This document shows, one piece after another, positions 2,820 to 25,790 of a DNA stretch of 25,790 bases (within the stretch, counting starts at the first letter, position 1; every line of letters starts with the position of its first letter). The position numbers were made by a program, and so were the translations under genes. The stretch lies in the IMG/VR virus record IMGVR_UViG_3300005731_000408, positions 1-25,790 of that record, one strand, 5' to 3'. The stretch comes from a virus. The notes under the pieces are model-generated. The model saw nothing but the letters and a program-made list of their open reading frames with translations, searched no databases and was not told the DNA's origin.

Positions 2820-4648
2820 CACCATAGCTCCGCTTCAAAACCGATATAGACACCCGGATTTCCATCAAACCGCAAAGTAGTTGCCTGACCGGTCACAAAA
2901 CCCGCGCCAGAACCGGCAAGGCCAACAATGTAGGGATTGCCATTTGTTTTCGAAATCGCAGTTAGGTTGCGAACCGTGCCGTTATCGACCGATTGGAAGT
3001 GGGTTTGATCACTCATTATCAGGTTGGGTTCGGCATGCATTGGCACCGGCATGGGCATGACGAAGTTTAAGGATGTCGCACTATACATATTGCCCATGGC
3101 AAAATAGACCGTCGACGCACCATCATCACCGTTTATGCGCCAATGATAGGCCATACATCGCAGCAAGTCGGCGTCCTTGTCCACCGGCCCCGAAGGGTCT
3201 TGAACCCCGGTGAGATCACCGCTGCATAAGGAAAAATGTGACAAGTCCAATGTGAAGGCTGAAAATGCAGCACCTTCATGGATCCGCAACATCAAATGAT
3301 CGTTCGCATCGCCAATCACCTTGCCCGATATCGAGGGCATTGCAAATTTGAATTGCACCTTGTTCCAAACACCACCCGTCAGCGTCACGGTTTCACCATG
3401 CGCCACCACCGCACCACTTGGAGCGCCACCTATTCCAAAGCGTTGCTGAACATCAAAGTAGAAGTCTTTTGTCACGGTTGAGTAGATAAAATAGGTAAGC
3501 GTTACCTCTTGCCCAGCAAGTTTACGAACGCCCCGAATTTTTTGCACCCACACATCATTTGCGGCAGTGGCTGGCGTCGTTCTGTCGTGGCGACATAAGT
3601 ATTCGGGTTCACCGGGCACATCGGTCTGCCCAACAACATGCCGCTGGCGACTGACTGTTCCAGCTCCGCCAGCTCCAAAAAAATGTCTGTGACGATCGGC
3701 ACAGAACTCACCATCAACATTTGAACTAACGCCCCAACGCCAATGGTCGAAGTTCCCGTTATCAATGAAGTTTTTCTGAGAGGGCGTTTCGCCCCCACCA
3801 CCACCGGCGAGCGCTGTGCGCAGATTAGTCCCGGTAGAATAGACCAACAAACTGTCACCCTGCCCCAACACCCGGACAGGCTCACCATCAATCGTCTCAG
3901 TGCCGGCAGGCAACAGGGAAAGCAAACCTTCCCCCTCATTCTTGACCACAACTAAAAAGTCAGAACCAAGGGTTGCAGCTGGGTCAAAACCAAACTCAAT
4001 AGGTACCGCCTTGTCAGCAATCAGTGTATCGCCTTTGTTGCCAACCACAACGGCATAGTCGGCGCTTTTGATGAACTGCAAGCCAGACAAAATGCCATTT
4101 AGACCATTTGCACCATCCGCACCGTTTATACCATCCACACCGTTGGCTCCGTCAGTGCCCGGATCACCTTGATCGCCTTTGTCGCCCTTGTCTCCCTTCA
4201 CCCCCTGCGGACCCCGCATGCTCAGCTTAAATGTCCAAACGCCCGTTTCTTTGAGGTAGAGATCACCATTGTCGGCGTTGATATAGAGACCGTTGTCGGT
4301 GCCGTTAGCATCGTCAGGAACGCCATTACCAACATCCACCCGAACAGGGTTTTCTAACCCTTGAATGTACTGAGCAACTAGCTCATTCATTGTCCGGTGC
4401 AATCCCCATTCGTAGGAGCCGTGAAGAATGGAATAGCTTTGTCCACTAGCATCAGCGCCGGTATAGGCAATCGACATTTCAATATGTGAGGTGTCGGTGA
4501 CCTGCTCCACAAAAGCCATATGATCACCGGCCACAATGATCGCATCGCCTTCACGGACAACGAGATTGGTCCATGCCCCGCCCGTTAATACAAGTGTCTT
4601 GCTGCCCTGCACCACAGCAACGGTGCCAGCATTGTAAATCTCTGCCAT
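2819..4648 (-). CDS. Tail fibre with collagen-like repeats
   Basis: A 609-residue structural protein. Residues 1-145 form an N-terminal region likely to attach to the tail. Residues 146-185 are thirteen uninterrupted Gly-X-Y triplets (GPQGVKGDKGDKGDQGDPG and onward), a collagen-like trimeric stalk found in many phage fibres. The C-terminal part begins near residue 290 with KNFIDNGNFDHWRWGVS, an opening common to phage receptor-binding domains that fold as beta-sandwiches resembling carbohydrate-binding modules, and continues to the end. The gene follows the tail tip and the three small SKPG-motif genes and is coupled to a fibre-assembly-like gene, so it is the best candidate for the host-recognition protein. 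The start ATG has AGG about ten bases upstream. Confidence 0.85.
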   Translation of the reverse strand: MAEIYNAGTVAVVQGSKTLVLTGGAWTNLVVREGDAIIVAGDHMAFVEQVTDTSHIEMSIAYTGADASGQSYSILHGSYEWGLHRTMNELVAQYIQGLENPVRVDVGNGVPDDANGTDNGLYINADNGDLYLKETGVWTFKLSMRGPQGVKGDKGDKGDQGDPGTDGANGVDGINGADGANGLNGILSGLQFIKSADYAVVVGNKGDTLIADKAVPIEFGFDPAATLGSDFLVVVKNEGEGLLSLLPAGTETIDGEPVRVLGQGDSLLVYSTGTNLRTALAGGGGGETPSQKNFIDNGNFDHWRWGVSSNVDGEFCADRHRHFFGAGGAGTVSRQRHVVGQTDVPGEPEYLCRHDRTTPATAANDVWVQKIRGVRKLAGQEVTLTYFIYSTVTKDFYFDVQQRFGIGGAPSGAVVAHGETVTLTGGVWNKVQFKFAMPSISGKVIGDANDHLMLRIHEGAAFSAFTLDLSHFSLCSGDLTGVQDPSGPVDKDADLLRCMAYHWRINGDDGASTVYFAMGNMYSATSLNFVMPMPVPMHAEPNLIMSDQTHFQSVDNGTVRNLTAISKTNGNPYIVGLAGSGAGFVTGQATTLRFDGNPGVYIGFEAELW

Positions 4649-9432: not shown

Positions 9433-10073
9433 CAGCTCACCCTCGATGTCGCAGAGAACGTCAACCGGCTTTCGTATATGCCGCTCTCAAGACCCTTGAC
9501 CGAAACTGGCTCAACAACAAACTCACCCGCAGCTTTGTGAAAACTTACGCTGTTGCCAACATTCACCTGCAGACTTATGGCTGGCCGGATCTCAATTGAA
9601 ACTTCACCACCCGCACTTCCAAGGGCCGTGACCTGAACGCGATGCAAACTCTTGCGAACACCGGTATCAACAGACAAATAGTCCCCTGCAGCCAAAGAGA
9701 ACAAAGCGGGGAGCTGCTCAACAACAATATTCTGCAAGTCAGTGATCGTCTTTAACTGACCAGAACCATCAAATGCGCCACCGCCAGCCACATTGAGACC
9801 ATCAAAGTTTTCATAGCCAATTGGGAACTGACGCGCCGGGTCGTGCAACAATATCGGGTACAAACCACCCTCGACTTTGTCAAAAAACGCCTGCCATTCG
9901 CCTTGTGCTGTGCGATCGAGCAAATCAGTGGTCATTGCTGCTCGCCAGTATTGCGGCGCATATTGGCCCGATAGGCCCTTGCCGGAACGCAAACGGTTTT
10001 GATTGGTCACATGCACCAAACGAAAACTTGAAGAAGCAAACCGAGAAGTTGGCAGTTGAACGGTTTCAGTCAC
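9432..10073 (-). CDS. Conserved distal tail protein
   Basis: A 213-residue protein following the tape measure gene, in the place where distal tail protein or lambda gpM/gpL equivalents lie. Visible features are LSGQYAPQYWRAAMTTDLLD, then GEWQAFFDKVEGGLYPILLH, and C-terminal beta-strand segments ending in ESRLTFSATSRVS. The start is a GTG at 10071-10073 overlapping the tape measure stop (TAGTG), so expression is probably coupled. I cannot assign it to a numbered family with certainty. Genomic context makes a structural role at the tail end very likely. Confidence 0.7.
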   Translation of the reverse strand: MTETVQLPTSRFASSSFRLVHVTNQNRLRSGKGLSGQYAPQYWRAAMTTDLLDRTAQGEWQAFFDKVEGGLYPILLHDPARQFPIGYENFDGLNVAGGGAFDGSGQLKTITDLQNIVVEQLPALFSLAAGDYLSVDTGVRKSLHRVQVTALGSAGGEVSIEIRPAISLQVNVGNSVSFHKAAGEFVVEPVSVKGLESGIYESRLTFSATSRVS

Positions 10074-11866
10074 TAGCGCACCCGATTAATTTGATTGTGT
10101 CGCATCGCCCCTGCAACACGCTTGTCCATTTTCTTGTCATATTGGCGAATACCAGCCGAAACGCCTGCTTCAACCATCTCAAGAATTTCAGAGTTTCCAC
10201 GCGCACCAGACACATCGATCGTCATATGTAGTGATCCCGAAGTATTGCCTGATCGAAGCCGATCATTTGGAACAACAATGCCTTGTTGGCCCGGCACAAT
10301 AAGCTCTGGTCCCCGTTCGCCCACTAAGTAGGGTTGGTTGGCCTGTATCAGACCACCGTTGGCCCGCGCGCCAATTGGAAATGGCAGTCCGCCACCGCCC
10401 GTTAGTCCACCCATCAAAGCACCAAACAAGGCATTCAAGCCCTGCTGCGCCTGCTGACGCAACCAAGCTCTAGCAATGTCTTCAATCGTGCCAAGCACTG
10501 CATCGCCGAAACTTTCGGTACCATCAATCATCGCATCATAGTGCGACATGGCAACGCTGGTCATGCCTTCGATTTGGCGTTGCAAAGCTTCTTGTGCAGC
10601 CGCCTGAGCCTCAATGGATTGCGTTAATGCGTCATTGGCCGTGATCTGCGCACGGATCTGATCAGCCTCGTCGCTCATCACATCGACGCCCGCGCGCCGG
10701 ATGTTGTTTAGGATCTCTTGCTCAAGCTTGGTTTTTCCAATGAGAGACGCCTCATGTTGGAGCGCTTGCATGACTTTCTCATACTGCGAAATCTCTTTGT
10801 CACGCCCACCTCCACTTGGCGCGCGTCCGTTGCCGAGCCCCTTTGGACGGGTCGGCGGCAGGCCGTTGATGGCGCTTTTCGAAAACACACCAAGTTGGTC
10901 AAATGAATACTCTTCGATTTCCGGACGCGAACTATAAAAGCCATCATAGCCCTCGCTTGGAGTGAAGAAATCTGCCAATGGTTGCCCCAAATCTCCGGTA
11001 TACAGTGCTCCTTTGATCTTTCGCTTCCCCAAGGCCTCAGTGCCACCGCCAAACCGCCTCGCATATTCATATTCGGTCATTGGCGTATACTCATCGCTGT
11101 GCACCAATCCCTTGATTGCCTGTACCGCGTTGAGTGCACCACCTTTCCACCATGTGTCCCAACGTTGCATCAACAAATCGAATTCTTTGGCAACTTCCTT
11201 GGCCGCGACCGCCGCTTCATCGTCAAGCACAAGTCCCAATTCACGCGCGCGATCGCGCATGTCTGAAATGCCTTGCTCACCCTCATCGATTAAGCGCACA
11301 AACTGCTCGCCAGCAGTGCCACCAAAAATTTCGTCAGCGATCCTGATCTGCGCGGCGACTTCGAGTTCGCCCAAGCGCCCGATGATCTCGCCAAGTAGAG
11401 CGTCTGGCTCTTTGAGCTTTTTAGCCAACTCATTCGTGGAGTAACCGAGCCGTTCAAATGCTTCTTTAGCTGGCCCTGCTTTGGTGAAGATGAATTCATC
11501 TGCACGCAGGTTGAGCTCCTTTAGCCCATCTGTCAGTGCATCGATCCCCACACGCTTTTGATCGGCTACAAATTTAAGCTCCTGAAAAGCTTCAAAGCTC
11601 ACACCCGCAGTTTCAGCTTCAGCGGCAAGGTCCGCAACGCTCTGAGCGGCGACATTGATCGCTGCGACACCCGCTGTTATTGCCCCGACAAAGAACCCGC
11701 CTTTGAGCAAATTCGCTGTCGACATGATTGACCCGGCAAACTGAGCCATGTTGCGATCAGCAATTGCAATCTTGCCCGCCGCTCTGTCCAAATCTTGCGT
11801 GAACCCAGCGACCGCTGGGCGTGCATCATTCTTGCCCTTAATCCGCCAGATTAGATCTTTGATCAT
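10073..11866 (-). CDS. Tail length tape measure protein
   Basis: A 597-residue tape measure protein. The N-terminus (MIKDLIWRIKGKNDARPAVA) leads into a hydrophobic segment at about residues 54-76 (LLKGGFFVGAITAGVAAINV). Next comes a long helical region (SFEAFQELKFVADQKRVGID) typical of phage tape measures. The C-terminal part has a glycine-rich hinge and the frequent LVGERGPELIVPGQQGIVV motif, which is widespread in siphophage tape measures. It follows the G/GT chaperone genes, as in lambda. By the usual rule of about 1.5 angstrom per residue, a tail near 90 nm is expected; that length is an inference. No obvious lytic domain is visible. Confidence 0.9.
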   Translation of the reverse strand: MIKDLIWRIKGKNDARPAVAGFTQDLDRAAGKIAIADRNMAQFAGSIMSTANLLKGGFFVGAITAGVAAINVAAQSVADLAAEAETAGVSFEAFQELKFVADQKRVGIDALTDGLKELNLRADEFIFTKAGPAKEAFERLGYSTNELAKKLKEPDALLGEIIGRLGELEVAAQIRIADEIFGGTAGEQFVRLIDEGEQGISDMRDRARELGLVLDDEAAVAAKEVAKEFDLLMQRWDTWWKGGALNAVQAIKGLVHSDEYTPMTEYEYARRFGGGTEALGKRKIKGALYTGDLGQPLADFFTPSEGYDGFYSSRPEIEEYSFDQLGVFSKSAINGLPPTRPKGLGNGRAPSGGGRDKEISQYEKVMQALQHEASLIGKTKLEQEILNNIRRAGVDVMSDEADQIRAQITANDALTQSIEAQAAAQEALQRQIEGMTSVAMSHYDAMIDGTESFGDAVLGTIEDIARAWLRQQAQQGLNALFGALMGGLTGGGGLPFPIGARANGGLIQANQPYLVGERGPELIVPGQQGIVVPNDRLRSGNTSGSLHMTIDVSGARGNSEILEMVEAGVSAGIRQYDKKMDKRVAGAMRHNQINRVR

Positions 11867-11868
11867 CG

Positions 11869-12341
11869 CTACTTCTTTTGCTCAATTTGGAAATAGGCGA
11901 GCCAACCGTTATATTCATTAACGGTCATCTCTTCGATTTCAGCTAAGGTTTTGTGGAGCCGATCCGCCAGCCTGTACATGTTCAGGCGAAGCGGATCGGC
12001 CTTTAGTTTTTTACCTGTTCCTTGACGGAAACATGGTTCTTCATGGCCAAGCCGATGTACGACACGACACGCTCATCAACACCACGATAAAGCTCGATCG
12101 CGTGGGTATCTTCGAACAACCGCTCACCATTTGCGTCCTTCGCCTTTCGGGCAATGAGATGACACAACATGAGCTGATAATTGTTCTCGGACTTCGCGTT
12201 GAGCATGAAGCTCTCGTTTAGGGTTGGCGGATCGTAATAAACCTTCAACGGCTTATCCTTCTCGCCCCACTCTGGAACTTCGATGCAGCTGTTGAGCTGA
12301 TCAGTATAGTGCTTCTTTGCCCGATCAATGAGGCTCATCAT
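11869..12341 (-). CDS. Tail assembly chaperone G-T fusion made by -1 frameshift
   Basis: The extended product of the tail chaperone gene. Ribosomes read the upstream frame to AAA AAC at 12006-12011, slip back one base on A AAA AAC, and continue with CTA AAG GCC to the TAG at 11869-11871. This adds 45 residues (including YRLADRLHKTLAEIEEM and NEYNGWLAYFQIEQKK) for a total of about 157. The added part resembles the T-type C-terminus of tail assembly chaperones, with a LADRL helix and an EWLAYF-type motif. The T frame has no ribosome binding site of its own. As in lambda gpG/gpGT, the short and long forms should coat and bind the tape measure during tail assembly, and are not expected in the finished tail. 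Confidence 0.8.
11958..12012 (-). other. Programmed -1 frameshift signal: slippery heptamer plus stem-loop
   Basis: On the minus strand AAAAAAC (12012 to 12006) is in the zero frame as xxA AAA AAC, the classical form for simultaneous -1 slippage. Five bases later (TAAAG) begins GCCGATCCGC (12000-11991), perfectly complementary to GCGGATCGGC (11967-11958). Inside that loop is a second 5-bp stem (GCCTG with CAGGC; 11970-11974 with 11983-11987). The zero-frame stop TAA follows the heptamer immediately. Confidence 0.85.
12003..12341 (-). CDS. Tail assembly chaperone G (short form)
   Basis: The unshifted product, 112 residues, ending at the TAA right after the slippery heptamer. It is mostly helical (SLIDRAKKHYTDQLNSCIEV, then YQLMLCHLIARKAKDANGER and LYRGVDERVVSYIGLAM), as expected for siphophage tail assembly chaperones lying between the tail tube and tape measure genes. 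The start overlaps the tail tube stop in ATGATGA, so either of two adjacent ATGs could serve. Most ribosomes should make this form and a minority the longer fusion. The ratio is functionally important in lambda. The family assignment rests on position, size and the frameshift. Confidence 0.85.
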   Translation of the reverse strand: MMSLIDRAKKHYTDQLNSCIEVPEWGEKDKPLKVYYDPPTLNESFMLNAKSENNYQLMLCHLIARKAKDANGERLFEDTHAIELYRGVDERVVSYIGLAMKNHVSVKEQVKN

Positions 12342-12733
12342 GCCACCGTCGCATGCGTTAGAGGACCATTGCCAACAACTGAAAAGCTACGTGTCACAAT
12401 GCCGTCTTTTGAGCCGTTGCTGTTGATCGACTGCACGATACAATTGCCTGAATACTCCGTGTCACCGGATCCATCGCCACCCGGATAAAGACCCACAGTG
12501 ATTTCGCTGCCCAACGTTAGGGCCTCTTGCCCGTTGGCGTCAGAAGCATCCCAGAATGCCTCAATCTCGGCACTCCAGTCTTTGATGCCACCTGCCTTGC
12601 GTGTTTTCCACTCGTCGCCCATTGCTGTATCTTCTTTGATATCGGCGGATTTTGTAAGCGACCAGTTTTGGATCTCAGCGACAGCGTTGCTGCCAACTTT
12701 CACCACACCATCATTGCCATCTGTCGTTGACAT
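12338..12733 (-). CDS. Major tail tube protein
   Basis: A 131-residue protein with the hallmarks of siphophage tail tube subunits. The beginning is DGNDGVVKVGSNAVAEIQNW, followed by SADIKEDTAMGDEWKTRKAG, a loop region typical of this family, and a beta-strand C-terminus (GIVTRSFSVVGNGPL). It should polymerise as stacked hexamers around the tape measure. It has a good ribosome binding site (AGGAG eight bases before the ATG). It lies between the tail terminator-like gene and the tail chaperone genes, and its stop overlaps the chaperone start. Confidence 0.85.
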   Translation of the reverse strand: MSTTDGNDGVVKVGSNAVAEIQNWSLTKSADIKEDTAMGDEWKTRKAGGIKDWSAEIEAFWDASDANGQEALTLGSEITVGLYPGGDGSGDTEYSGNCIVQSINSNGSKDGIVTRSFSVVGNGPLTHATVA

Positions 12734-13191: not shown

Positions 13192-13517
13192 CCATCGCGC
13201 TCCAATTCGAGACGCGCCACGCCTTGTCCGTCGATGTCGATCGGTGCAGCGACACGATAGTTCTGTGCGTTTAGAACCACCAGATCGTCTTCACCGAACC
13301 CATTGGGTAAATCGCTCGCCTTGCACGTTATCGTGGCATCCCCGACGCTCACCGGCACCGGGCCAAGATCATCGACCTGAAGCGACGCGTTATCGAAAAT
13401 GCCAACGAGGTTGAACACTTCACCACCTGTTGAAAGCTGATAGGTGAAGTTGGTGCCAAATTCATCGGCATTTAAGAACACAGCGAGGTCACTTTCCATC
13501 GTTTGAGTCAGTGACAT
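13188..13517 (-). CDS. Head-tail joining protein (gpFII-like)
   Basis: A 109-residue protein beginning MSLTQTMESDLAVFLNADEF. I choose the ATG at 13515-13517 because GAGGAGG lies seven to eight bases upstream; the longer open frame upstream shadows the preceding gene. The beta-rich C-terminus (EDDLVVLNAQNYRVAAPIDI, then GVARLELER) is typical of head-tail connector proteins of the gpFII / head closure type, which often end with a YRV-containing strand and LER-like tail. It overlaps the preceding small gene by 29 bases and the tail terminator gene by four. Confidence 0.75.
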   Translation of the reverse strand: MSLTQTMESDLAVFLNADEFGTNFTYQLSTGGEVFNLVGIFDNASLQVDDLGPVPVSVGDATITCKASDLPNGFGEDDLVVLNAQNYRVAAPIDIDGQGVARLELERDG

Positions 13518-13701
13518 CGGGATCCTCCTCTGCCTTGCTCGACTCGCGTTTCTTGACGAACTGAGCTTTCTTGGCATCAACAAGGCCACGCGCGATGACA
13601 GTATTGACGGTCATGGTCTTCCCGCGCGGCTGCATTTTGCCAGCCAAAGGGACTGTCTTAAGAAGCCGAATTTTGATCTTCAGTGGCTTCTTCGTCGTCA
13701 C
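13489..13701 (-). CDS. Small head-region protein overlapping both neighbours
   Basis: About 70 residues reading VTTKKPLKIKIRLLKTVPLA, then GKMQPRGKTMTVNTVIARGL and VDAKKAQFVKK. The pattern [KR]LLKxVxLAGKxxxxGxxxxVxxxxARGLVDA is one I associate with tiny proteins (DUF7210-like) near capsid genes of many phages, so I consider it real although it is hidden in overlaps. The start is uncertain: GTG at 13699-13701 places the conserved core close to the N-terminus, and an ATG at 13717-13719 is possible. Both lie inside the acidic repeat of the upstream gene in another frame. The C-terminus overlaps the start of the head-tail joining gene. Function unknown. Confidence 0.6.
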   Translation of the reverse strand: MTTKKPLKIKIRLLKTVPLAGKMQPRGKTMTVNTVIARGLVDAKKAQFVKKRESSKAEEDPDVTDSNDGK

Positions 13702-14095
13702 CGTCGTCTGGGTTGCCATCTTCTTCGTCGTCGCCATTTCCATCACCCTCGTCTGGGTTGCCATCTTCTTCGTCGTCGTCTGACACTCCACCCTCATCTT
13801 GGCTGGCAACCTTGGCGACTGGCGCTTCAATAGCGACAACTTCGGAAACCATGCCGAGCGCTTTCTCAAGCTGACGGTCGAGTTTCTCATCATCAACAAA
13901 ACCGACCACTTCGCCCTTTTTGAAGTTGAGCGTCTCAGCGACTTTGAAAAACTCACGCCGCTCGTCATCCTTGCCCACAGCACGGCGTTTCACTTTTGTG
14001 AGTTTGTGACCACGGTCATCGGCCTGCGTAGCAGTCAATCCAATGACCATGCCAACAGACACGCGACCTGCGACCTTAAATTTCAGAACTTTCAT
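13658..14095 (-). CDS. Hypothetical head-region protein with acidic repeat tail
   Basis: A 145-residue protein. The start is the ATG at 14093-14095, with GGAGA eight bases upstream. The N-terminal 100 residues are basic to mixed (MKVLKFKVAGRVSVGMVIGL; RREFFKVAETLNFKKGEVVG), with two segments of the form K[FV]xxxxxxxGxVxG that may each be a small beta barrel. The C-terminal 45 residues are almost only D, E, G, N and P (DDEEDGNPDEGDGNGDDEED), encoded by a near-perfect 45-base duplication. It lies directly behind the major capsid gene. A capsid accessory role is plausible; no named family is recognised. Confidence 0.65.
   Translation of the reverse strand: MKVLKFKVAGRVSVGMVIGLTATQADDRGHKLTKVKRRAVGKDDERREFFKVAETLNFKKGEVVGFVDDEKLDRQLEKALGMVSEVVAIEAPVAKVASQDEGGVSDDDEEDGNPDEGDGNGDDEEDGNPDDGDDEEATEDQNSAS
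13704..13778 (-). repeat. Direct repeat encoding acidic tail
   Basis: A 30-base sequence occurs at 13704-13733 and again, identically, at 13749-13778, a period of 45 bases (15 codons). It encodes the DDEEDGNPD unit of the acidic C-terminus. In another frame the leftmost copy is also the start region of the small overlapping gene, so copy-number changes by slippage would alter both genes without breaking the frame. Confidence 0.9.
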
Positions 14096-14110
14096 TTTGA
14101 AAATCTCCAA

Positions 14111-14139
14111 AGAGAAAAGCCCGCTCACTTGGCGGGCTT
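14111..14139 (-). terminator. Terminator-like hairpin after major capsid gene
   Basis: A perfect 8-bp stem (AAGCCCGC at 14117-14124 with GCGGGCTT at 14132-14139) has a 7-base loop and, on the minus strand, is followed by a T-rich run (TTTTCTCTTT counting the end of the stem). It sits about 30 bases after the major capsid stop and just before the GGAGA ribosome site of the next gene. It should reduce transcription into the tail genes or stabilise the capsid mRNA. Confidence 0.75.
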
Positions 14140-23455: not shown

Positions 23456-25183
23456 CTATTTGGGATCGAAGTCTGGATCCAGCTCGCCATCTTCGCGCTC
23501 TCTTTGGATAAATTCGGGCTTCAACCGGATGCCGACATATTTCATCAGCCCGGATTTCTTTTGTTTCGACGCACCACGGCTTTCAGCTTGATCAGGCAAT
23601 CGCCGCTGGAATGTTGGTTGATGGAAGGGAGACCACCCCTGTTCATCCTTAATGCGATCATAGGCGGCATAGATCTCGCCCGGCGCCATCATGTCGTTTT
23701 CATCGCCAGTGAAGTCGCAGCAATTGTCCAAAAACGCACCAATTGGGTTACTGTCTTCCCGATATTCTTTGGTGGCATTGAGCACCTCATCAGGCGGATT
23801 TAGGCCCTCTTCAAAGTAGCTAAGAGCGCCCTGCACCAACCAATTGAATATCCCTTCGCGCTCATCCCAAAGCTTGCGCCCTAACATCTTGTCAACACGC
23901 TCCTTGGGCAGCTGCACCGCCCACGGCACCAACAAGACACGCCGCCAAATGCCGTTGTCATCATTGTGGATTTGCGGCTTGTGGTTGCCCGAAATGATCA
24001 ACTTGAAGTCGGGATATATCTCGTTGAATTCTTTGTTGAGTTGGCGGATCAATATCGGCTCATCTGAGGTCAATGATTTGATCATAGCCTCTTTGAATTT
24101 CATGTTGCTTTCCGGCTCGGAGGCACGGACTAAACGCGAACCGGGTAAGCGCACGAGGTCCGGAGTGGCGTCACTGCCCTTGCGTTTCTGGTCGCCTGCG
24201 AGGGTCTCAATCGGCACCGTTGTTGAATAGTCATCAAGTATCCGGCAAACGATATCAACCAAGGTTGATTTGCCATTGCGGCCACCACCGTGGAAGAATG
24301 CAAACACCTGCTCATGCGTCAGCCCGGTGATGCAATAACCCATATAGCGCTGTATGAAGCGCCGGATCTCGTCAGATGGCTGCATCTCTTCAAGAAAAGC
24401 GTCAAATAGCGGCGCAGTGGCGTCGGGATCATAGTTTACAGGCACCATTTTGGTCAGAAACTGCTCCTGGTCGTGGTCGCCCAATTTGACGTCCCACACC
24501 TTTTTGTCGCCCGCCAGATGCTCTTTGAACTCAAGTGTTCCGTTCGCGCAATTCACCAGCAATGGGTTTTCATCCATCTTGGCCAATTCACGTGTGATGT
24601 ACGGTTGCGCCTCTTGCAGCATATTGTCGATTTTCGAAGAACCGGCTGATGATTTCGCATGCTTTTGGCGCGAGGATCTGCGCGACACCAACGCCTTGCG
24701 CACCTGATCAGCTTCAGATCGCAATATCCGCAACTCGGATAGACGTTTCTTGTCCTCTTCGGATCGATCATCGGACTTCATAGAATCCAGCCGAGCAAAC
24801 TCTTCTTTGGTGTCTTCCTCTTCTTGCAGTGTGCGCTTTTCAAACGCCAAGTGTTCGATCAGAAAACGCTCATTGGCGATGCGCTCTGCTGTGTCGTGGC
24901 ACAAGCGCCGGATCTGCGATTTGTGTTCATCCCACTTCCAGCGTTTGCTGTCATAAATGTGGAAGCCAACGTTAGGCACATGCAAAACAGTGTCACGGTA
25001 TCGGGCGAGAAAACGTCGACCGTTTCCAATGTCTGTCTCCGGCTCTTTGGCCGTGATCTCCAATATTGGATCGGCCTCCAACAGATCAGCGCGCCGATCT
25101 TCGGGCTTTGCTTTCATGTCAGGTTGCGGGATTGGCTCAATCTCAATTGCGCCCTCAATTGCGTCGCGGATCTCATTGCCCAT
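23456..25183 (-). CDS. D5/P4-family primase-helicase (SF3 helicase)
   Basis: A 575-residue phage replication protein of the P4-type primase C-terminal family. Residues 190-290 form the D5_N-like region (PLLVNCANGTLEF ... EEMQPSDEIRRFIQRYMGYC). The SF3 helicase follows: Walker A GGGRNGKST at 299-307, a Walker B-like segment around 349-358 (SRLVRASEPE), motif C LIISGNHKP around 395-403, and candidate arginine fingers in GIWRRVLLVPW. A charged helical segment at about 112-170 (EEEDTKEEFARLDSM) looks like a coiled coil. I chose the third of three consecutive ATGs (25181-25183), six bases after GGGAG. The gene overlaps the Toprim gene by eleven bases, so both likely act together in initiating phage DNA replication. 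Confidence 0.88.
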   Translation of the reverse strand: MGNEIRDAIEGAIEIEPIPQPDMKAKPEDRRADLLEADPILEITAKEPETDIGNGRRFLARYRDTVLHVPNVGFHIYDSKRWKWDEHKSQIRRLCHDTAERIANERFLIEHLAFEKRTLQEEEDTKEEFARLDSMKSDDRSEEDKKRLSELRILRSEADQVRKALVSRRSSRQKHAKSSAGSSKIDNMLQEAQPYITRELAKMDENPLLVNCANGTLEFKEHLAGDKKVWDVKLGDHDQEQFLTKMVPVNYDPDATAPLFDAFLEEMQPSDEIRRFIQRYMGYCITGLTHEQVFAFFHGGGRNGKSTLVDIVCRILDDYSTTVPIETLAGDQKRKGSDATPDLVRLPGSRLVRASEPESNMKFKEAMIKSLTSDEPILIRQLNKEFNEIYPDFKLIISGNHKPQIHNDDNGIWRRVLLVPWAVQLPKERVDKMLGRKLWDEREGIFNWLVQGALSYFEEGLNPPDEVLNATKEYREDSNPIGAFLDNCCDFTGDENDMMAPGEIYAAYDRIKDEQGWSPFHQPTFQRRLPDQAESRGASKQKKSGLMKYVGIRLKPEFIQREREDGELDPDFDPK

Positions 25184-25790
25184 CATCATCTCCCACCAAC
25201 ATGTCATTAAAGTCCTTGCCCGGCGCTGCATCGGCAATTCTGGCCACCAAGCCGGGTCGCAGCGCCATGGCGCGCCTGCCGCACCGCAGTAGCTTTTTTT
25301 CCGTCGCGGCGCTGTCGCTGTCCGCATCCCGTAATATGATAAATTCCTTGCACCACTCAGGCGGCACAAAGGCTAGTGCGTCCAAATCTGGAATATCGTG
25401 GCGACGCGTGCCCGTTTCATCCATGCCCGTGGGACCAGCCATATTGCCCAAATTCACCCCGCACCAGTAGGCGGTGTTGGGCTGATACGCTTCTTGTAAT
25501 GCGGTCAGTGTAGTTTCTATGCCCTCACCCATTACCAATCGTTTGGGGCTTTTGGGCGTATATAGCCAGATCGCTCCACCCTTTTGCGAACCGCGCACTA
25601 TCTTGGAGGGCAATGGCTGGCCAGTGTTTGGATCATCGAGCAATCGCTTACCCTTCGGCTGGCTGGCGTCGAGATAGGTCATATGCACCGCACCAAGCTT
25701 GCCATCAGGCAACATAATCGCACCGATCATGGCCGGACATGTGTCGATCACTTGCCATTCGACCTTGCTACCAATCTTCACTTGGCAGCG
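25173..25790 (-). CDS. Toprim-domain primase, 3' part (runs off the window)
   Basis: The C-terminal 205 or so residues of a primase; the frame stays open to the right edge, so the N-terminus (possibly with a zinc finger) lies outside. The part seen begins with a region matching the segment before Toprim in phage primases (GAIMLPDGKLGAVHMTYLDA, then GKRLLDD). The Toprim core follows: LVMGEGIETTLTAL with the conserved Glu, and FIILRDADSDSAATEKKLL with DxD. The end is GKDFNDMLVGDDDGQ, a common tail (KDFNDML) of these proteins. It synthesises primers for phage DNA replication together with the following SF3 helicase. An internal GTG at 25779-25781 should not be taken as the start. Confidence 0.85.
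   Translation of the reverse strand, partial: RCQVKIGSKVEWQVIDTCPAMIGAIMLPDGKLGAVHMTYLDASQPKGKRLLDDPNTGQPLPSKIVRGSQKGGAIWLYTPKSPKRLVMGEGIETTLTALQEAYQPNTAYWCGVNLGNMAGPTGMDETGTRRHDIPDLDALAFVPPEWCKEFIILRDADSDSAATEKKLLRCGRRAMALRPGLVARIADAAPGKDFNDMLVGDDDGQ

Follow-up and report, generated by a model that had tools for sequence, protein, structure and literature searches.

Analysis of a contig of 25,790 bases from an uncultured tailed phage (IMG/VR record IMGVR_UViG_3300005731_000408; the whole of this stretch is called the window) indicated that a programmed -1 ribosomal frameshift very probably fixes the relative amounts of two tail assembly chaperones, G and the fusion GT. That a -1 frameshift joins G and T had been proposed in a first-pass annotation made from the sequence of the window, and several lines of evidence upheld the proposal: synteny, homology of both G and T, a profile match across the junction, a slippery heptamer present in 80 of 80 relatives (the best 80 of 561) and codon constraint on a downstream stem. 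That G and T are joined by frameshifting is textbook knowledge from phages such as lambda and HK97 and is no surprise in a tail module of the lambda type. The new part is the predicted stem, unusually strong, conserved and constrained at the codon level, at the slip site of the tail chaperones; a limited text search of the open literature returned no paper whose title or abstract reports a stem of this kind in these phages.

Anatomy of the slip site

All features of the site lie on the minus strand. Gene G, the zero-frame tail assembly chaperone, is an open reading frame of 112 codons (12341-12003) whose 3' end reads GTA AAA AAC TAA. The slippery heptamer AAAAAAC (12012-12006), which is A_AAA_AAC in the frame of G, covers the last two codons of the gene, and the zero-frame stop TAA (12005-12003) follows immediately. 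A spacer of 5 nt, TAAAG (12005-12001, stop codon included), leads to an outer stem in which the 5' arm GCCGATCCGC (12000-11991) and the 3' arm GCGGATCGGC (11967-11958) form Watson-Crick pairs at 10 of 10 positions; enclosed within it is an inner stem made up of GCCTG (11987-11983) and CAGGC (11974-11970). T occupies the -1 frame (12006-11869) with 45 codons and the stop TAG (11871-11869), and its 45 residues read LKADPLRLNMYRLADRLHKTLAEIEEMTVNEYNGWLAYFQIEQKK. Together with G, this gives a GT fusion of 157 aa. Upstream, a candidate Shine-Dalgarno-like element, AAGGA (12019-12023), is located 6 nt before the heptamer.

These coordinates agree with the first-pass annotation as regards the heptamer in the correct frame with a stop directly behind it, the 5-base spacer, the perfect 10-bp stem holding an inner 5-bp stem, and a fusion of about 157 residues beside a G of 112. 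It had also placed the end of T three bases before the start codon of the tape measure gene (ATG at 11866); this was right to within one base, the actual gap being 2 nt (CG). Its label "prophage" goes beyond the evidence, the source being an IMG/VR contig without host flank.

Identity of G and T and their genomic context

The gene order is tail tube, G, T, tape measure protein (TMP). The upstream neighbour (12338-12733, minus strand) was assigned as the tail tube (major tail) protein based on Pfam Phage_tail_2 (E=1e-6) and phrog_1407, major tail protein, and the downstream neighbour (10073-11866, minus strand) as the TMP based on phrog_10574, tail length tape measure protein (E=7.5e-106). The 157-aa GT matched phrog_16513, "tail assembly chaperone", over residues 5-151 (E=1.9e-9), and this match spans the junction. 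G alone matched the same family weakly (E=0.004), while T alone matched phrog_337, "tail protein" (E=2.2e-4), in line with the earlier suggestion that the -1 frame encodes 45 residues resembling T. Another family, phrog_344 "tail assembly chaperone", was matched by 35 of 44 relatives of G. Searches of Pfam and NCBIfam gave no match for the G or T of the window; the Pfam families Phage_TAC_* and Phage_tail_T appeared as weak matches in a few relatives only. A sequence-profile search of the PDB was likewise without a match.

The AlphaFold2 model of G (pLDDT 91.8) had the HK97 tail assembly chaperone 2ob9 as its top fold match in the PDB (probability 0.99-1.00, TM about 0.5, E 0.014), followed by YqbN; among predicted viral structures (BFVD), the tail assembly chaperone of phage RcRhea was nearest (TM 0.81). 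Judged by homology and predicted fold, G is a tail assembly chaperone.

The large terminase has its nearest counterpart in Sinorhizobium phage phi3LM21 (48%), and the hosts of the named relatives are all alphaproteobacteria (Roseobacter, Rhodobacter, Dinoroseobacter, Sinorhizobium and Pelagibacter). Relatedness of this kind makes an alphaproteobacterial host likely for the source phage. A search for near-identical DNA returned only a 58-bp piece of the portal gene in Vibrio phages, and none in plasmids. Protein scans of viral contigs yielded one close relative with the tail tube protein and no relative with the TMP, and a scan of genome contigs yielded two distant T-like loci.

Conservation of the heptamer and coding of T

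In order to avoid selection on DNA, IMG/VR was scanned with patterns of the T protein; of the 561 relatives that this gave, the best 80 were fetched. AAAAAAC was in register in 80 of these 80, which had been found by T protein only, and was directly followed by TAA or TGA in 71 of the same best 80 of 561, with a stop soon after in the rest. Among named phages, the end of G carries AAAAAAC in CRP-406, -811, -823 and -831, HTVC026P, HTVC202P and phi3LM21, AAAAAAG in HTVC111P and HTVC112P, and GGGAAAC in R4C, RcSaxon and RcRhea; in all of these, T lies in the -1 frame after the heptamer. The string AAAAAAC by itself is unremarkable in the window (3 occurrences vs. 6.9 expected), so the evidence rests on the frame and place of the heptamer, the stem and the conservation. 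One distant G-T relative, L005, reads TTT AAA AAA AGC at the junction (about 3391-3408), without a proper in-frame X_XXY_YYZ heptamer. The T frame also behaves as coding sequence: 20 of 31 differences between the window and its nearest relative (L066) fall at third codon positions, as do 52% of the differences over all pairs.

The T frame contains two ATG codons, at 11979 and 11928, and in the phi3LM21 record T is deposited as a separate 36-aa ORF, as would be the case if T were a small gene with its own start, coupled to the stop of G. This reading is nevertheless highly improbable. At 19 of 56 dereplicated sites, T codons 1-12 include no ATG, GTG or TTG; Met stands at codon 27 in just 25 of the 56, and ATG 11979 falls inside the loop of the hairpin. 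Moreover, the open frame, the conserved residues and the profile match of T all start at the heptamer, upstream of both ATG codons, and an own start would leave no reason for the retention of the heptamer in 80 of the best 80 of 561 relatives.

Transcriptional slippage on the A run, rather than slippage of the ribosome, also has very little probability. Runs of A are prone to slippage, and those of some relatives (L004, HTVC026P and HTVC202P) have eight or nine A, but the run of the window has six only; for bacterial transcriptional slippage, runs of nine A or T are cited (PMC5009743). A homopolymer mechanism is inapplicable to the GGGAAAC of the Cronusvirus relatives, and a codon-constrained stem at a 5-nt spacer suits a ribosome.

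As the first-pass annotation had anticipated for simple gene callers, T is mostly missed. The RcSaxon and RcRhea records give the homologues as joined frameshift CDS, but T is absent from 9 of the 12 phage records inspected although the -1 frame and the heptamer are present (MN698240, MN698245, MN698246, MN698248, PV211008, PV211010, PV211013, PV211014 and MK882925), and hence from most deposited annotations of such phages among those inspected.

Selection on the downstream stem

The 76 nt 3' of the heptamer had a predicted folding energy of -32.8 kcal/mol, compared to -17.4 +/- 3.2 kcal/mol for dinucleotide shuffles, none of which was as low (0/200). In a codon null, in which the T protein was kept and synonymous codons were drawn from the usage of the contig itself, 0 of 300 shuffles were as low as the window (z -6.3). 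This downstream structure was also by far the strongest among the 23 in-frame X_XXY_YYZ heptamers of the window's genes, the next reaching -22.7.

A scan with the DNA pattern AAAAAACTRAARGCNGAYCC gave 95 stretches, 90 of which were G-T junctions by a simple rule, and 36 dereplicated sites of the ADRL type could be aligned without gaps. The outer helix was paired in 92.2% of cells across these 36 sites, vs. 87.6% in column shuffles (0/500 as high), and sliding the partner of the outer stem by 1 to 3 columns lowered pairing to 21-46%. Synonymous shuffles were beaten at z<-2 by 34 of the 36 sites, with a mean energy z of -4.0, and 9.2 of 10 outer-stem pairs were observed vs. 6.0 of 10 in the codon null. 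Because the fold is far more stable than that of synonymous-codon shuffles, selection acts on the stem as nucleic acid, beyond the protein code.

Codon choice within the stem was strongly biased, with GCC held in 35 of 36 sites (12.5 expected), CCG in 32 of 36 (11.8), GCG in 28 of 36 (8.3) and GAT in 35 of 35 (20.8); the Asn codon of the loop showed no codon bias. In a positional scan, the stem codons reached z values of 14 to 30, except for the Asp codon of the 5' arm (5.0) and the covarying Arg codon (8.1); shared ancestry lifted some other positions to a z of about 10. In the nearest relative (L019/L066/L116, one contig), all 20 bases of the outer stem are kept while neighbouring third positions differ, and one pair of the inner stem has changed from C-G to U-A. 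Beyond this relative, the exact register of the inner stem is not conserved (60% of cells paired), and other sites use other registers.

Compensatory stem changes, for which the first-pass annotation had advised a comparison across relatives, are present: pair 14-54 was seen as C-G, G-C, G-U and A-U, pair 13-55 as G-C, G-U and A-U, and pair 18-50 changed from U-A to C-G in L024. On the tree, however, the changes at pair 14-54 perhaps reflect one or two events and that at pair 18-50 one, and a tree-based covariation test was under-powered, with only 2-3 independent pairs. As the double changes amount to few independent events, covariation alone is modest evidence, and codon choice provides the stronger test.

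Both arms of the stem encode conserved residues, and random synonymous codons still form 6.0 of 10 pairs on average, which would be compatible with a stem that arises as a by-product of the conserved ADP and LADRL peptides, without a function as RNA. We consider this most unlikely in view of the excess of pairs and the energies relative to the codon null, and of a strong codon bias confined to places where pairing requires it. Furthermore, in L024 an Asp to Gly change in the 3' arm goes together with GAT to GAC in the 5' arm, so that the pair is retained, and in a second clade the partner of this 5' arm is another 3' segment. The start-codon, codon-bias and codon-null tests led us to set aside three readings: initiation of T at its own start, slippage during transcription, and a stem imposed by the protein sequence only.

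A hairpin about 90 nt before the TMP start, on the same transcript, might mainly act in a different process, for instance by restricting read-through into the TMP gene or in mRNA processing, with frameshifting incidental. This, too, has a low probability, as the hairpin begins at a fixed distance of 5 nt from the heptamer in every ADRL-type site. It is not followed by a T-run and is therefore not an intrinsic terminator, and Rfam contained no match to it.

Distribution of the stem among relatives

In the second clade (L028, L038, L064, L067 and L089), the 5' arm keeps its position but has its partner further downstream, for example GCAGATCC with GGGTCTGC, and the resulting stems are long and beyond the codon null (z -2.6 to -5.7). 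A very long hairpin with the same spacer was noted in L038 (12100-12171, minus strand) and in L064, L067, L089, L028 and L032, where T begins ADPDLxFAYRLAKDLG. In L117 (995-1066 of a 39-kb record), the outer stem, read from the alignment, continues unbroken as CCGATCCGCAAGA / TCTTGCGGATCGG. The GC-rich L022 (3653-3720), which the simple T rule left out, has arms GGACC/GGTCC that by eye appear paired with the register shifted by one base.

In CRP-406, CRP-811, HTVC026P and HTVC202P, heptamer and T are intact but there is no significant stem, and the stem is absent from L124. Since heptamer and T persist without a significant stem in several relatives, the stem is not a fixed requirement in this family. 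It would then boost or tune the site in part of the family rather than be its defining element. Natural sets of sites with and without the stem thus exist for measuring its effect on the G:GT ratio.

Sequence upstream of the heptamer

The Glu codon at position -4 is GAG in 36 of 39 sites, compared to 14 expected. Other Glu codons tested showed no such bias except codon -1, where the preference for GAA is forced by the heptamer itself. Together with the next codon, this GAG forms GAGGA in relatives, 6-7 nt before the heptamer, the window having AAGGA. The duplex energies of this Shine-Dalgarno-like element go only modestly beyond the codon null (-6.0 vs. -4.5). For -1 shifts, stimulatory Shine-Dalgarno elements are placed 9-14 nt upstream (PMC5009743); the spacing of AAGGA/GAGGA falls outside this range of known -1 stimulators and is nearer to the heptamer.

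Comparison with known systems and proposed mechanism

The G/GT chaperones of lambda and the -1 frameshift conserved in long-tailed phages were reportedly described by Levin in 1993 and by Xu in 2004, with a review in PMC5009743. The window shares with lambda the order tail tube, G, T and TMP, the heptamer at the end of G and a T that is read in the -1 frame only. The features typical of lambda were found in the window: flanking tail tube and TMP genes, chaperone homology and fold, an in-frame heptamer and a T without a conserved start of its own. In contrast, the heptamer of lambda is G_GGA_AAG without a strong abutting hairpin, the first 50 nt of its site reaching -7.3 kcal/mol (window, -32.8) at a codon-null z of -1.2, and its T is far longer, with about 145 codons according to the deposited coordinates vs. 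45 in the window. Strong comparative evidence at the codon level from metagenomic phages indicates that a hairpin under selection is part of the slip site in this group, whereas the site of lambda shows none.

HK97 gp13 and its -1 fusion (2ob9), deposited as a -1 joined CDS, share the fold of G but have only about 15-17% identity to it, and the G of the window has no Pfam match. HK97 was left out as a yardstick for the stem, since its heptamer was not located by the simple frame rule. Homologous G/T pairs with 25-41% identity are found in the Cronusvirus phages RcSaxon, RcRhea and vB_DshS-R4C, the Roseobacter CRP and Pelagibacter HTVC phages and Sinorhizobium phi3LM21. These alphaproteobacterial phages have a slippery heptamer at the same place; it varies between AAAAAAC, AAAAAAG and GGGAAAC, and in many of them the strong stem is absent or different.

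The dnaX gene of E. coli, an unrelated gene, likewise combines an A-rich heptamer with a stem-loop a few nt downstream (PMC3711429, PMC5009743). It has A_AAA_AAG and a Shine-Dalgarno sequence 9-14 nt upstream, whereas the window has A_AAA_AAC and a candidate element at 6-7 nt; the window therefore shares with dnaX the downstream stem-loop, and neither the heptamer A_AAA_AAG nor a Shine-Dalgarno sequence at 9-14 nt.

Slippage itself, its stimulation by the hairpin, its efficiency and the role of the products in assembly are what we infer from these features. Most ribosomes would end at the TAA and release G (112 aa). The hairpin 5 nt downstream would pause ribosomes with AAA in the P site and AAC in the A site, and on A_AAA_AAC a minority would re-pair one base back, from AAA AAC to AAA AAA; continuing in the -1 frame, these would produce GT (157 aa). 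By analogy with lambda, for which binding of G to the TMP and of T to the tail tube subunit is described (PMC5009743), G would coat the TMP and the T part of GT would recruit the tail tube subunit.

The stem argues for stimulation of frameshifting, since the lambda site has no strong abutting stem and, in dnaX, the efficiency of frameshifting correlates with the calculated strength of the stem (PMC5009743). The same source describes A_AAA_AAC as much less shift-prone in E. coli than A_AAA_AAG, so the stem may do no more than offset a weaker heptamer. The first-pass suggestion of an efficient version of the signal, although favoured by the stem, therefore goes further than the evidence. Reported values are a G:GT ratio of about 30:1 for lambda (PMC5009743) and a measured 7% for an HK97-like tail chaperone cluster (PMC3711429). 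A bolder reading holds both that the Shine-Dalgarno-like element, A_AAA_AAC and the selected stem act as a composite signal raising frameshifting well above that of lambda, with a G:GT ratio far from 30:1, and that the 3' arm of the stem was re-invented in sister clades; taken jointly, we regard these two propositions as rather doubtful.

Other features of the window

Between the major capsid and head-tail attachment genes lies an acidic ORF (13658-14128, minus strand) that contains a tandem repeat of 45 bp (DDEEDGNPD...). It is overlapped by a long open frame (13489-13983) and has no PHROG match. The primase appears split over two overlapping adjacent ORFs on the minus strand (25173-25781 and 23456-25369). 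In alignments of PHROG primases (about 855 aa), the second ORF is covered from position 349 onwards only, and the split primase probably consists of two genes with overlapping stop and start.
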